64,000 nucleotides of DNA from an uncultured Woeseiaceae bacterium. Its GTDB lineage: Bacteria > Pseudomonadota > Gammaproteobacteria > Steroidobacterales > Woeseiaceae. The DNA is taken from contig CAMYJB010000002.1 in the NCBI GenBank assembly GCA_947258565.1, positions 209,868-273,867 on the forward strand, read 5' to 3'. Numbering within the stretch: position 1 is the stretch's first letter; each line of letters opens with the position of its first letter. This document shows positions 3,080-63,989 of this stretch, piece by piece. The position numbers were made by a program, and so were the translations under genes. The notes below the pieces were generated by a model, which made no database searches, had not been told where the DNA came from, and worked only from the letters and a program-made list of their open reading frames with translations.

Positions 3080-3469
<390 letters not shown>

Positions 3470-58077: not shown

Positions 58078-58821
58078 ATGACCAAGATCCTTCGCACTGT
58101 CTGGAGGCACGTCGCCAGGAGTGCTCGTGACCTCACGCCGATCGTCCTGGTGATCGCTTTTTTCCAGTATTTCATTCTCCAGCAACCCCTGGACAATGCG
58201 CTGGGACTCGTGAGCGGTGCCATCCTGGTACTGATCGGACTGACCCTCTTCGTTTACGGTCTCGAACTCGCGCTGTTCCCCATTGGTGAATCGCTGGCGC
58301 ACGCGCTGGCGCGTAAAGGCAGCGTATTCTGGCTTTTGACGTTTTCGTTCCTGCTCGGATTCGGCACCACGGTAGCGGAGCCGGCGTTGACGGCGGTCGC
58401 GAACGAGGCGGCAAAAGTCGCGGCGGCGGCGGGAGCGATCGCCGACACGGATCAGGCCCGATCCCGGTACGTTCTCGGCTTGCGGATCACCGTGGCGCTT
58501 TCCGTCGGCACCGCACTGCTGATCGGCGTGCTGCGCATCCTGCTGGGCTGGTCATTGCCACTGCTGATTATTTCCGGGTACGTCATGGTCATCGCGATGA
58601 CCGCCGTCGCGCCGCCGGAGATCGTCGGCATCGCCTACGACTCGGGGGGCGTCACGACCTCGACAGTGACCGTGCCGCTGGTCGCAGCGCTCGGCGTGGG
58701 CATGGCGTCGTCCCTTCGCGACCGCAACCCGATGACGGACGGTTTCGGCCTCATCGCATTCGCGTCCCTGACGCCGATGGTCTTCGTCATGGCCTACGGG
58801 AGTATCGTCAAGTGGATATGA
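58078..58821 (+). CDS. DUF1538-family integral membrane protein (subunit A)
   Basis: [21 protein letters not shown] and [26 protein letters not shown]; shares motifs with the next gene. Confidence 0.8.
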
Positions 58822-59630
58822 TGGGGCCCATGGTGAAGACCATCTTGTCGACGGCGCTCGACGTGCTGCCGATATTGCTGTTCATCTTTCTTTTCCAGTT
58901 GTTCGTAATCAGGCAGCCCATACATGACCTGCGGCGCCTCTTCGCCGGCATAGTGTTCACGATACTCGGCCTCGGACTGTTCCTGGTCGGGCTGGAGCAG
59001 GCGCTGTTTCCCCTCGGCCGACTCATGGCGCAGCAGCTGACGCACCCGGAATTCCTGATGTCGGGCGCTGAAGCACTCGATTTTCACTGGACCAACTACA
59101 AGTGGGTGTACGTGTTTGCTTTCTGCATCGGCTTTGCGACCACGATTGCAGAGCCAGCACTGCTTGCAGTCGCAATGAAAGCCAACGAGACGTCGGGTGG
59201 CGCGATCCACGTCTGGGGGCTGCGCGTTGCGGTAGCGATCGGCGCTGCGGTTGGCGTGAGCCTCGGATGCTTCCGCATCATCGCCGGTTTGCCGCTGCAG
59301 GCATTCATTCTCGTCGGTTATATCGTCGTCGTTGTTCAGACGATCTGGGCCCCGCGACTGATCATCCCGCTTGCTTATGACTCCGGCGGTGTGACAACCT
59401 CGACGGTAACGGTACCGCTGGTCGCCGCACTCGGTCTCGGCCTGGCAGAGACGGTGCCAGGCCGCAGTCCGCTACTGGACGGGTTCGGCCTCGTCGCGTT
59501 CACCTGCCTGTTTCCCATCATTTCTGTCCTGGCCTATGCGCAGTTGAGTGCACTCCGTGAGCGGTTTGCGGGCCGCCACAAAACCGAAGCGGAAAATGGT
59601 GCAGAATCGAATTCCAAGGAGGTAATCTGA
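58812..59630 (+). CDS. DUF1538-family integral membrane protein (subunit B)
   Basis: [21 protein letters not shown] and [27 protein letters not shown]; overlaps preceding gene. Confidence 0.8.
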
Positions 59631-59980
59631 TGCAATTCAAGTTACTAATCGTCTTCGTGGAGGACTCGAAGACCACCGAGATCATCGAGGCGGCGCGTGA
59701 AGCAGGCGCCACAGGCTGCACGGTGATTAACCATGCCCGCGGCGAGGGCTTTGAGGGGCACAAGAGCTTCTTCGGCTTGTCGCTCGTCAGCCAGACGGAC
59801 GTCGTCCTGCTGCTGGTCGAGCGGCACATGTCCCGCGATATTCTCGAGAAGATCGGCTCGGTCGGGGAATTCGACGAAAAGCCCGGCACGGGACTCGCCA
59901 TGCAACTCGACGTGGAAGATGCCATTGGCGTGATGCGCCAGGCCGAAGAACTGGCCGAAATAGTGGAGGAACAGTTATGA
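59630..59980 (+). CDS. PII-like signalling protein
   Basis: [40 protein letters not shown]...; GlnB-like fold pattern but no canonical GlnB T-loop; TGATG junction. Confidence 0.78.
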   Translation: MQFKLLIVFVEDSKTTEIIEAAREAGATGCTVINHARGEGFEGHKSFFGLSLVSQTDVVLLLVERHMSRDILEKIGSVGEFDEKPGTGLAMQLDVEDAIGVMRQAEELAEIVEEQL

Positions 59981-60381
59981 GCCAGCCAAACTGGGTGCCC
60001 GTTCGTAGCATCATGCGCAAGGAGGTCACGTTTATCGCGGGTCGCACCAGCGTGCTCGAAGCGATGCGCGAGATGAAGCGCGTCGGGGCAACAGTGCTCA
60101 TGGTCGAGAAACGCGACGACCAGGACGAATTCGGGATGGTCTCTTTTGCGGACATCGCGAAACAGGTGATCGCCAAGGACCGTTCTCCCGAGCGTGTCAA
60201 CGTGTACGAGATCATGGCCAAGCCGGTCATCTCGCTGAGGCCGGACATGAATACCCGCTACTGCGCCCGCTTGTTCGATAACTTTGGCATCAGCCACGCG
60301 CCGGTCATCGAAGACGAGAAGGTGCTCGGCATCGTCAGCTATTACCTGATCGCCCTGCACGGCCTGCCAAAGCTGGACTGA
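59977..60381 (+). CDS. CBS-domain protein
   Basis: VRSIMRKEVTFIAGRTSVLEAMREMKRVGATVLMV...VNVYEIMAKPVISLRPDMNTRYCARLFDNFGISHAPVIEDEKVLGIVSYYLI (tandem CBS). Confidence 0.88.
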   Translation: MSQPNWVPVRSIMRKEVTFIAGRTSVLEAMREMKRVGATVLMVEKRDDQDEFGMVSFADIAKQVIAKDRSPERVNVYEIMAKPVISLRPDMNTRYCARLFDNFGISHAPVIEDEKVLGIVSYYLIALHGLPKLD

Positions 60382-60387
60382 TTGCAA

Positions 60388-61947
60388 TCAGCTGCTTTGC
60401 TCGTCTTCGCGCAGGCCCTTTAGCAACCCGAAACACATGAGCAGCAGAACGACCCCGAACGGCAGGCCGACCGAAATCGTCAATGCCTGCAGTGACGCCA
60501 TGCCGCCGCCGAGCATCAGTGCGATTGCGACCATACCGGCCAGCAGGCACCAGAACACGCGCTGCTGCACGGGCGCGTCCAGCTTGCCGCCAGCGGTAAT
60601 GATATCCATGACGAGCGAGCCCGAGTCGGCAGACGTAACGAAGAAGATCGCGATAAGGAACACGCTGATTGTCGAAACGATGCCGGTGAAGGGCAATTGT
60701 TCCAGCATCTTGAAAAGCGCGAGTTCCGGTACCGCTTCCGCGACGCCCATGTAGCCGTTCGTGAACAGCTGGTCGAGTGCCGTGCCGCCGAAGGTCGACA
60801 TCCAGAGGATGCCGATGACCGTCGGGATGACGAGCACCCAGGTAATGAATTCCCGCACCGTTCGGCCATAACTGACGCGCGCGATGAACATACCGACGAA
60901 CGGCGACCAGGCGATCCACCATGCCCAGTAAAACGTCGTCCAGCCGTGGAAGAAGGCGTCGTCCTCCCGGCCGATCCAGTTGCTCAGGCCCGGCAGGTGA
61001 AAGAGGTAATCCACGACGGCCTTGCCCATGGTCGTAAAGATCACGAGCGTTGGCCCGGCGATAATCACGAACAGCATCAGCAGCCCTGCGAGCCCCATAT
61101 TGAGCTCGCTAAGGCGCTTGACGCCTTTGTCGAGTCCCGCAACGACCGACGCCAGCGCAATACTGATGATAACGATGATCAGTATGATCTTGACGAGATT
61201 GTTTGCCGGAATGCCGAACAGGTAGTTGAGGCCGCCCGCAATCTGTTCGGCACCAAAGCCCAGCGACACCGCCAGGCCGAATAATGTGGCAAGCACGGCG
61301 ACCGTGTCGACGAAGTGCCCGAACGGTCCCCATACACGCGTTCCGAACAGCGGGAAGAAAGCGGAGCGCAAGGTCAGCGGCATCTGCCGGTTGAAGCAGA
61401 AGAATGCAAGGGACAGGCCGACGACGGCGTAAATCCCCCAGGCGTGCAGGCCCCAATGGTAGATCGCCGACGACATGCCGGCCGCCCGCGCGGCTTCTGT
61501 ATCGGCGGGGTCGATGCCGAGCGGTGGCTTGAGCGTATGGGTTACGGGTTCCAGTACACCGAAAAACATGAGGCCTATCCCCACGCCCGCCGCGAACAGC
61601 ATCGCGAGCCAACCCGGATAGCCATAACGGGGTTTCGCGTCGGGGCCGCCAAGGCGGATTCGGCCCAGTTTCGAGATCGCGAGACCCAGCCCGAAAAGCA
61701 CGAAGATATTGGCAGCGATCATGAAGAACCAGTCGAAGACAGACGTGATCCAGACCCTGAGGTCGCCAAAGATGATCGCGGCCTGATCCTGGAAGAGCAT
61801 CGTCAGGACGACCAGCGCGACAGAGAGAAAAGCCGAGACGACGAAAACCGGATTATGGATATCCAGGCCGAGAACCTCGATATTGTGCTCGCCGATCTCG
61901 TGACCGATTTCTTCGGGGTCGTGTTCGCTTATATTTTCGTCTTCCAA
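60388..61947 (-). CDS. BCCT-family transporter (glycine betaine/choline/carnitine-type)
   Basis: GVGIGLMFFGVLEPV, GLHAWGIYAVVGLSLAFFCFNRQMP, FYWAWWIAWSPFVGMFIARVSYGRTVREF; probable TTG start right after upstream stop. Confidence 0.92.
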   Translation of the reverse strand: MEDENISEHDPEEIGHEIGEHNIEVLGLDIHNPVFVVSAFLSVALVVLTMLFQDQAAIIFGDLRVWITSVFDWFFMIAANIFVLFGLGLAISKLGRIRLGGPDAKPRYGYPGWLAMLFAAGVGIGLMFFGVLEPVTHTLKPPLGIDPADTEAARAAGMSSAIYHWGLHAWGIYAVVGLSLAFFCFNRQMPLTLRSAFFPLFGTRVWGPFGHFVDTVAVLATLFGLAVSLGFGAEQIAGGLNYLFGIPANNLVKIILIIVIISIALASVVAGLDKGVKRLSELNMGLAGLLMLFVIIAGPTLVIFTTMGKAVVDYLFHLPGLSNWIGREDDAFFHGWTTFYWAWWIAWSPFVGMFIARVSYGRTVREFITWVLVIPTVIGILWMSTFGGTALDQLFTNGYMGVAEAVPELALFKMLEQLPFTGIVSTISVFLIAIFFVTSADSGSLVMDIITAGGKLDAPVQQRVFWCLLAGMVAIALMLGGGMASLQALTISVGLPFGVVLLLMCFGLLKGLREDEQSS

Positions 61948-61949
61948 GA

Positions 61950-63989
61950 TCAGCTCCTCGGGCTCTGAGCCGGTGCGGGGATCGGATAACGATCGAGAAT
62001 CGGCCCCAGCGCCGATTTGAGCGGGTCGAGCCACGCCTCGAAATTGCGCCACTGGTCCAGTCCGCTGGTGTAGATGGGCTGCCTGACCTGCTCGGAGCTC
62101 GGCGTCCGGACAGATCGCTTCGTCTCGTAGAAATTGACGCAGGCGTCCTCGTAGGGCAGGCCGCAATAGTCCAGGATGCGGCGCACCTGGACCGGCGTGT
62201 CGCTCACCACATCCTCGTACTGGACGCGCAGGACCTTGCCGGGCAGGGCGGCATCCCAGTGATCCATGAGCTCGACGTAATCGCGGTAATACCGGCCCGC
62301 ATCGGAGAGGTCGTAGGTAAATTCCTGGCCTTCGGCAAACAGCTGCTTGTAGCCGCTGAAGCAGCACGCCATCGGGTGACGGCGTGCATCGATTATCTTC
62401 GCGTTCGGCAATATCATGTGTATCAGGCCGATGTGCCGGAAGTTGTTCGGCATCTTGTCGATAAAGAACGGTGCGTCCTGACGATGTATGCGGGTATCGT
62501 CGATGTACTCCTTGCCGAATGCTCCGAGCTCTTTTTCAGACAGCTCGTTGAGTATCCCCGGGTATTCCGTGGCGCCGTCCTGCCGCGCCCTGCGTCGCAG
62601 GCGTTGTGACAGCGACAGGATATTGGGCAGTTCGAGTGTCCCGTCGACCTGCGAATGCGACGAAAGGATCTGCTCGAGCAAGGTCGATCCCGCGCGGGGC
62701 AGGCCCACGATGAAGATCGGGTCCGGCGCATCGTGGCCGCAACCCGATCGCCGCTCGAAAAGCTCCGCCGTGCAGACGTCCTGCTGGGCTCCCAGATCCT
62801 GCGTCATCTGTTCCGACTTGTAGGTGGTCTGGAGTTTCTTCAGCCGGTTGCCCTGTTCGTAGTAACGGAAAGAGGTCGCGAAGTCGCTCCTGTCCTCGTA
62901 GGCCTTGCCGAGCGCAAAATTGAGGTGAACACGGTCCATATGCGACAGGTTGCTGTTGTGCTCCTGCGCATGCATCTCTTCGATCTCGGCATCGCTGAAC
63001 GAGTAAACCTTGAGGTTGGCGAGCGAGTAATACGCCTCGCCATGATGCGGCGCGCTTGCGATCGCCGCCTGGTAGGCCTGGACGGCGTCCTCGTAATCAC
63101 CGCAGGTCTTGTGCGCATGTCCCTTGGACGTGAGCGTGACGGGATCGGCCGGCAGCTGCGCGAGAATCTCGTCGAACGTTGACAATGCCGTCTCGTAGTC
63201 GCCGGTCTGCATGCTCTCGATCGCAAACAGTGATTTGAATTGCGGATTGTCGGGCGCAGTGTCGAGCAACAGCCTGGCCTGCTCCAGCGCGGCGGCAAAC
63301 TTTTGCCGCTTGCGCAGCGCCTGGATGTAATCGATCCGGACGCGCACGTTGTCGGGCTCGAACTTCAGCGCGCTCTCGAGCAGGAACTCCGCATCTTCGA
63401 GCACGCCAAGGCGCACGCCGATGTCCGCGAGCAGCCGCATCCCCTCCACGTGGTGGGGCACCTTGCGAAGAAACTGGCGGCAGACATCCTCGGCTTTGAG
63501 CAGCTTCCGCTGCGAGACAAGGTCGAGGACAGCGAGGAGCGGGCGCGGCAACGCCTGCAGCGCTTCGAGTTGCGCCGTGATCTGTGCCGCCTGCAGGTCC
63601 AGGCCCTTACTGCGAAATATCTCGAGTTGACCGCGCCAGCTCGCGACGAGGGCGGGATTGAAGCGGCAGGCGCGCCCATAAGCCAGCAACGCGTCTTCCG
63701 GATTTCCCATGTCCCGGTACGTATGGCCTTCCTCCTGGTGGGCGCGGCCGTGTTCCGGCGAAATCGTCTTGAGCGTCGCGATGTGCTCAAGCGCCGACTC
63801 GAAGTCACGCTTGTAGCGGGCGCATACGGCGGCCATGTAAAGCGCATCAGGGTGGTCGGGTTCGGCCCGGAGTATCCCGGCAAGGTCCGTCAGCGCGTCG
63901 TCGAAACGTTTCGCAACGACCTTCTCCTGGACAACGCCAAGGTCAGGAACCGGACGGTTTGTTTCCACGCGTTGTTCCATCATGAGCAA
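61950..63989 (-). CDS. TPR-repeat sulfotransferase family protein
   Basis: TPR-like N-terminal half; FIVGLPRAGSTLLEQILSSHSQVDGTLELPNI PAPS-binding motif in C-terminal half. Confidence 0.9.
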   Translation of the reverse strand: MLMMEQRVETNRPVPDLGVVQEKVVAKRFDDALTDLAGILRAEPDHPDALYMAAVCARYKRDFESALEHIATLKTISPEHGRAHQEEGHTYRDMGNPEDALLAYGRACRFNPALVASWRGQLEIFRSKGLDLQAAQITAQLEALQALPRPLLAVLDLVSQRKLLKAEDVCRQFLRKVPHHVEGMRLLADIGVRLGVLEDAEFLLESALKFEPDNVRVRIDYIQALRKRQKFAAALEQARLLLDTAPDNPQFKSLFAIESMQTGDYETALSTFDEILAQLPADPVTLTSKGHAHKTCGDYEDAVQAYQAAIASAPHHGEAYYSLANLKVYSFSDAEIEEMHAQEHNSNLSHMDRVHLNFALGKAYEDRSDFATSFRYYEQGNRLKKLQTTYKSEQMTQDLGAQQDVCTAELFERRSGCGHDAPDPIFIVGLPRAGSTLLEQILSSHSQVDGTLELPNILSLSQRLRRRARQDGATEYPGILNELSEKELGAFGKEYIDDTRIHRQDAPFFIDKMPNNFRHIGLIHMILPNAKIIDARRHPMACCFSGYKQLFAEGQEFTYDLSDAGRYYRDYVELMDHWDAALPGKVLRVQYEDVVSDTPVQVRRILDYCGLPYEDACVNFYETKRSVRTPSSEQVRQPIYTSGLDQWRNFEAWLDPLKSALGPILDRYPIPAPAQSPRS

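Follow-up and report, generated by a model that had tools for sequence, protein, structure and literature searches.

A UmpAB-type DUF1538 operon encoding a PII-like protein as candidate regulator in an uncultured Woeseiaceae bacterium

Introduction

Control by PII proteins is a textbook mechanism in nitrogen and carbon uptake, and the PII-like protein SbtB is known with adenosine mono-, di- and triphosphate (AMP, ADP and ATP) and with cyclic AMP (cAMP). In the SbtA-SbtB system, the T-loop of SbtB enters the inter-domain cleft of the transporter (PMC8352866), and several other transporters are controlled through nucleotides by pairs of CBS domains (reviewed in PMC10710835). The UmpA and UmpB proteins of Halomonas zhaodongensis are DUF1538 paralogues encoded by adjacent genes that overlap by one base (PMC5484666). 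Here we describe a locus in which such components stand together. It lies at positions 58078-60381 of a 64,000-nt stretch from an uncultured Woeseiaceae bacterium (contig CAMYJB010000002.1; hereafter the window, to whose coordinates all positions without a locus name refer), and it encodes two DUF1538 membrane proteins, a PII-like protein and a CBS-domain protein. By analogy with SbtA-SbtB and AmtB-GlnK, we consider it somewhat probable that the operon specifies a UmpAB-type antiporter of monovalent cations and protons whose gate is a PII-like protein of its own.

UmpA and UmpB confer tolerance of 0.2 M NaCl and of alkali on E. coli KNabc only when both are present, the two Halomonas proteins co-immunoprecipitate as a heterodimer, and UmpAB vesicles carry out pH-dependent Na+(Li+,K+)/H+ antiport of measured affinity (published in 2017; PMC5484666). 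The words P-II and CBS are absent from the main text of that paper, and umpB is the last gene listed on its 4.2 kb Halomonas clone (PMC5484666). DUF1538 is also among the key genes of a growth-pH predictor (PMC13255231), and authors working on cable bacteria tie UmpAB to salinity (PMC12093952). The initial annotation of the window had treated DUF1538 as a family with no assigned function, a view that is refuted by the UmpAB antiport data (PMC5484666) together with the NCBIfam UmpA and UmpB models; a function-unknown family was thus ruled out.

Results

Four overlapping genes encode a UmpAB-type pair, a PII-like protein and a CBS protein

The four open reading frames are all on the + strand and form one tightly overlapping operon, at the positions first annotated. 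The first (58078-58821) encodes a UmpA-type DUF1538 membrane protein of 247 residues, and the second (58812-59630) a UmpB-type protein of 272 residues with a hydrophilic C-terminal tail. Both belong to DUF1538 (PF07556), which they match with 222.7 and 222.1 bits (E 4.3e-66 and 6.6e-66) against a cut-off of 22.6. The third gene (59630-59980) encodes a PII-like protein of 116 residues from a DUF1538-associated clade, and the fourth (59977-60381) a stand-alone two-CBS (Bateman) protein of 134 residues. The umpA and umpB frames overlap at stop and start, with a GTG at 58812; an alternative ATG at 58818 gives the classic ATGA overlap (58818-58821) and is likely the true umpB start. The umpB and PII genes meet in TGATG (59628-59632), and the PII and CBS genes in ATGA (59977-59980). 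A strong Shine-Dalgarno sequence (AAGGAGG), read directly in the + strand at 59614-59624, stands just upstream of the PII gene. No sigma-70-like site was found in a promoter scan, and a terminator scan gave no convincing site at the end of the operon.

The two membrane proteins are paralogous, as proposed, their alignment of 248 columns showing 41% identity (E 2e-47), and their genes are adjacent and overlapping in the manner of UmpAB-type genes. The best NCBIfam match of each is the proper model in the correct order, NF041627 (UmpA) at 349 bits and NF041628 (UmpB) at 329 bits, both under the respective cut-offs of 490 and 500. The UmpA cut-off was passed by none of 369 Gammaproteobacteria sampled, and the relatives that were tested likewise fell below the cut-offs. 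We therefore do not claim exact orthology: the window pair belongs to the DUF1538 family and has UmpAB as its functional model, but it is not a certified equivalog. Halomonas UmpAB resembles the window pair: the two DUF1538 paralogues, from adjacent and overlapping genes, have about 250 and about 270 residues, UmpB being the longer and carrying a hydrophilic C terminus. It differs in that PII and CBS proteins go unmentioned in the Halomonas study and in the distance of the window scores from the model cut-offs. The proposal of a heteromeric transporter built from a duplicated half finds support in the window paralogy and in the Halomonas heterodimer (PMC5484666).

The PII clade accompanies the DUF1538 pair across Gammaproteobacteria and beyond

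Gene order and linkage recur across hundreds of genomes, and the operon arrangement is therefore not a matter of chance. Among 80 gammaproteobacterial loci fetched by UmpB similarity, a set biased to close relatives, PII and CBS genes are both found within 1.5 kb in 77/77 loci having at least 900 bp downstream. In a set of 60 related genomes, 40 encode DUF1538 and the PII clade (a strong PII match being 48 bits or more), 2 encode DUF1538 only, none PII only and 18 neither (p 2e-13, a value that ignores shared ancestry, as does the one below). Each of the 44 strong PII matches in these relatives has a DUF1538 gene no more than 500 bp away, and their other, canonical-type PII proteins score at most 29 bits. 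A lack of conserved linkage between DUF1538 and PII-like/CBS genes had been named in advance as one observation that would refute the proposal; the linkage to PII proved very strong. Of 369 Gammaproteobacteria drawn evenly over the class, from more than 100 families, 124 encode both a UmpA-type protein and the PII clade, against 2 with UmpA only and 3 with PII only (Fisher p 3e-92), and the latter three cases sit on short contigs or where a contig ends.

The association also persists where the locus is rearranged. Locus L212 has the order PII-CBS-DUF1538, locus L181 carries PII on the opposite strand, and genome G571 has an insertion sequence element/transposase near a displaced PII gene. Plasmids of Alphaproteobacteria show DUF1538-DUF1538-PII without CBS, and Clostridia encode a fused DUF1538 pair (about 500 residues) with a tandem double PII (about 222 residues), again without CBS. 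Fused DUF1538 forms, a survey of which had been suggested, occur with PII alongside in Clostridia and in a long-fused gammaproteobacterial lineage. Across these genomes, the DUF1538 pair has PII as its near-universal partner.

The CBS protein has a Pfam CBS match of 1.9e-17 in two stretches, corresponding to two CBS domains. In an alignment of 46 homologues, CBS1 has GMVSFAD, which provides the G-h-h-S/T-x-x-D ribose motif of CBS/Bateman proteins, and CBS2 lacks the Asp. CBS pairs likewise serve as nucleotide-sensing control modules in MgtE, CorB and OpuA (PMC10710835); the window pair differs in being a separate protein and in being combined with PII. The CBS gene is present at all 77 near gammaproteobacterial loci, at 18/39 wider loci and at 0/6 alphaproteobacterial/clostridial plasmid loci, and we rejected it as a universal partner. 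Thus, of the linkage first proposed for both proteins, the PII part is near-universal and the CBS part lineage-specific. The core unit is therefore the DUF1538 pair with PII, to which some proteobacterial lineages add CBS as an accessory.

The restriction of CBS to a subset of lineages would suit an explanation in which PII and CBS control expression or another pathway and are merely co-transcribed with the antiporter. We regard this as very unlikely, given the near one-to-one co-occurrence in hundreds of genomes, which survives fusion, duplication and reordering, and given that other operon neighbours occur only in the closest relatives of the window. These neighbours (an alpha/beta hydrolase, an upstream ORF and a BCCT gene) led us to reject a larger conserved operon.

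The PII-like protein has a PII fold and a T-loop of its own

The Pfam P-II match of the third protein is 33.3 bits against a cut-off of 25 (E 6.4e-8). Its AlphaFold model, built from an alignment without two rows from annotated plasmid records, has the ferredoxin-like PII fold with a predicted local distance difference test score (pLDDT) of 84, the T-loop being less certain. The best Foldseek matches are SbtB and GlnK, with E 4e-7 to SbtB and a template modelling (TM) score to GlnK1 of at most 0.76. In the alignment of the clade, the T-loop has 17 residues in 85/85 members and the motif RGxGxxxx[KR]TF[FL]GL; the window protein itself has RGxGxxxxKTFFGL. The T-loop thus differs from that of canonical P-II, as the initial annotation had noted, in being a 17-residue loop of other sequence. 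The canonical P-II used for that comparison is indeed at 3080-3418, its strand being minus.

Throughout the 85-member alignment, the clade lacks residues that mark canonical GlnB and GlnK, namely T-loop Tyr51 (the uridylylated Tyr region), Arg38/Gln39, Lys90 and Arg101/103. It keeps the Gly and Thr positions, the GxG of the B-loop and the Thr that follows helix 1. A canonical GlnK-type PII with uridylylation was rejected on the T-loop residues. Because the uridylylated Tyr region and Arg38/Gln39, Lys90 and Arg101/103 are missing, these residue patterns disfavour GlnK-style sensing of 2-oxoglutarate and ATP and favour something closer to SbtB. The same replacement of the phosphate-binding Lys90, Arg101/103 and Arg38/Gln39 throughout the clade, together with the constant T-loop length of 17 residues, would fit a constitutive structural stabiliser rather than a nucleotide sensor. 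This is improbable in our judgement, since the clade keeps the GxG of the B-loop and the Thr that follows helix 1.

Like the window operon, SbtA-SbtB (PMC8352866) joins a secondary transporter to an operon-encoded PII-like protein, and the window PII is closest in fold to SbtB. The C-terminal CGPxGC R-loop, present only in some SbtB members, is not found in the window PII, whose C terminus reads AEELAEIVEEQL; the partner is DUF1538, for which no relationship to SbtA was seen, and there is an additional CBS protein. AmtB-GlnK likewise links a transport gene to a PII gene and provides a model of T-loop docking, whereas the window PII lacks the Tyr51 T-loop and the canonical 2-oxoglutarate/ATP residues and stands beside another transporter family.

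Multiple PII domains occur at several loci. Chains of about 400 residues with three PII domains lie beside a fused DUF1538 pair at L225:1382-2617 (- strand) and also at L142-L145 and L220-L224, in the gammaproteobacterial lineage with long-fused DUF1538. The L225 protein gives three hidden Markov model matches, and in profile comparisons its segments matched the PII alignment with probabilities of 97.0, 99.2 and 95.3%, against 0.1-0.5% for column-shuffled controls. A single chain of three PII domains fits the PII trimer and is a possible single-chain trimer. Loci L228 and L229 carry two separate neighbouring genes of the DUF1538-associated PII clade. At the clostridial loci L184, L185, L186 and L187, the tandem double PII beside the fused DUF1538 pair is labelled 'P-II family nitrogen regulator'; the nitrogen label is probably misleading here.

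The membrane pair has conserved acidic residues at or near predicted helix breaks

The AlphaFold model of a natural fused UmpA-UmpB homologue (pLDDT 90, predicted TM score 0.89) has two broken helices per half. The Glu of an AEP motif is at one helix break, and the Asp of a YDSGG motif is just ahead of the other. Each is invariant across 127/127 sequences and, where the pair is fused, in either half; both are candidate ion/proton sites. A 13-residue motif had been called invariant; across the family it is not fully so, its Asp and several Thr, Val and Pro positions coming close, whereas clostridial and long-fused members vary (e.g. FDAGGVATGPMTATF and WDCGAVTTGPVTVP). A Foldseek search of the fused-homologue model against the PDB gave no significant match (best E 0.0099, TM scores of at most 0.23); VcINDY reached a probability of up to 0.75, yet its E was 0.015. 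We consequently assign no known fold. On the weak evidence of a single search with a single model, the transporter may have a fold that no solved structure shows.

A different natural substrate is the chief rival to cation/proton exchange. The pair could be a PII-gated transporter for a nutrient or anion, such as bicarbonate, ammonium or a small organic ion, with the exchange seen in KNabc a side activity of one member. PII-like partners elsewhere mostly serve nutrient transporters such as AmtB and SbtA (PMC8352866), the window pair is under the equivalog cut-offs, and the family includes non-halophiles, e.g. Methylocystis and Clostridia. NhaA and one Na_H_Exchanger protein are further products of the genome from which the window comes, which therefore has antiporters other than UmpAB. 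Against a nutrient or anion substrate stand the sole measured activity of the family, cation/H+ antiport that depends on pH and has a measured affinity (PMC5484666), and the absence in Pfam and Foldseek comparisons of any tie of DUF1538, by family or by fold, to nutrient carriers such as SbtA and Amt. A nutrient or anion substrate is therefore a real but unlikely possibility.

Neighbouring genes and further DUF1538 arrangements

A BCCT betaine/choline-type transporter gene (60388-62367, - strand) adjoins the operon in convergent orientation and is kept only in the closest relatives. It is adjoined in turn by a gene for a TPR and sulfotransferase fusion protein (61950-63989, - strand). At L200:4413-5411, L202:1582-2562 and L205:4577-5557, second DUF1538 pairs of relatives, which lack PII, have a convergent tandem universal-stress-protein gene adjoining umpB; universal stress proteins are another nucleotide-binding family. 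At L155:3299-5674 (- strand) of genome G022, the DUF1538 pair carries at its C terminus a fused P-loop domain resembling cytidylate kinase (PF13189, 2.9e-10), with no PII alongside.

Discussion

A PII-gated UmpAB-type antiporter would work as follows. A heterodimer of the paralogous halves would most likely exchange Na+, Li+ and K+ for protons, with the AEP Glu and the YDSGG Asp serving as ion/proton sites. The PII-like protein, probably as a trimer, would dock on the cytoplasmic face of the transporter and read it through its short T-loop, much as AmtB is read by GlnK and SbtA by SbtB. Docking would be switched by an adenine nucleotide or another energy or osmotic signal bound between the PII subunits, and the CBS protein, in lineages that have it, would provide a second nucleotide input. 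For the window we infer the substrate of the pair, the contact of PII and CBS with the transporter, their ligands and the direction of control.

Several points weigh against this mechanism. Heterologous UmpAB is active in E. coli without PII or CBS, so that these proteins are not essential for activity; this is compatible with an inhibitor, and a PII brake on UmpAB seems for the same reason more likely than an obligate activator. About 10% of the wider DUF1538 loci have no adjoining PII, and some genomes hold a second DUF1538 pair without PII. The operon partner could act elsewhere than on the transporter. ATP may not be the signal, as the canonical ATP phosphate ligands are missing in the window PII clade, and the substrate of the window pair may differ, because UmpA and UmpB score under the NCBIfam equivalog cut-offs.

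The initial annotation had proposed an undescribed nucleotide-gated transporter. The transporter half has been published as UmpAB; the regulatory half is apparently undescribed, and we found no link between PII and DUF1538 or between CBS and DUF1538 in the literature, within a search limited to openly licensed PMC papers. The transporter is known and the PII-transporter principle is known; their combination appears to be new. We tentatively suggest that PII-gated cation/proton antiporters form a widespread class that had gone unrecognised, with a fold unlike those of solved structures, a PII clade exclusive to the transporter that occurs as single, double and single-chain triple (pseudo-trimer) forms, and CBS as a second nucleotide input.

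If true, internal pH and Na+/K+ balance would be coupled directly to energy or second-messenger state, and PII control, through a clade devoted to cation/proton antiporters, would reach into pH and salt homeostasis. This would apply to much of the marine Gammaproteobacteria and to some Alphaproteobacteria and Clostridia. The clade, whose members at present bear the label 'P-II family nitrogen regulator', would gain a function, for which a direct test becomes possible in the existing E. coli assay, and the single-chain triple-PII proteins would give a means of studying the action of PII trimers on transporters.
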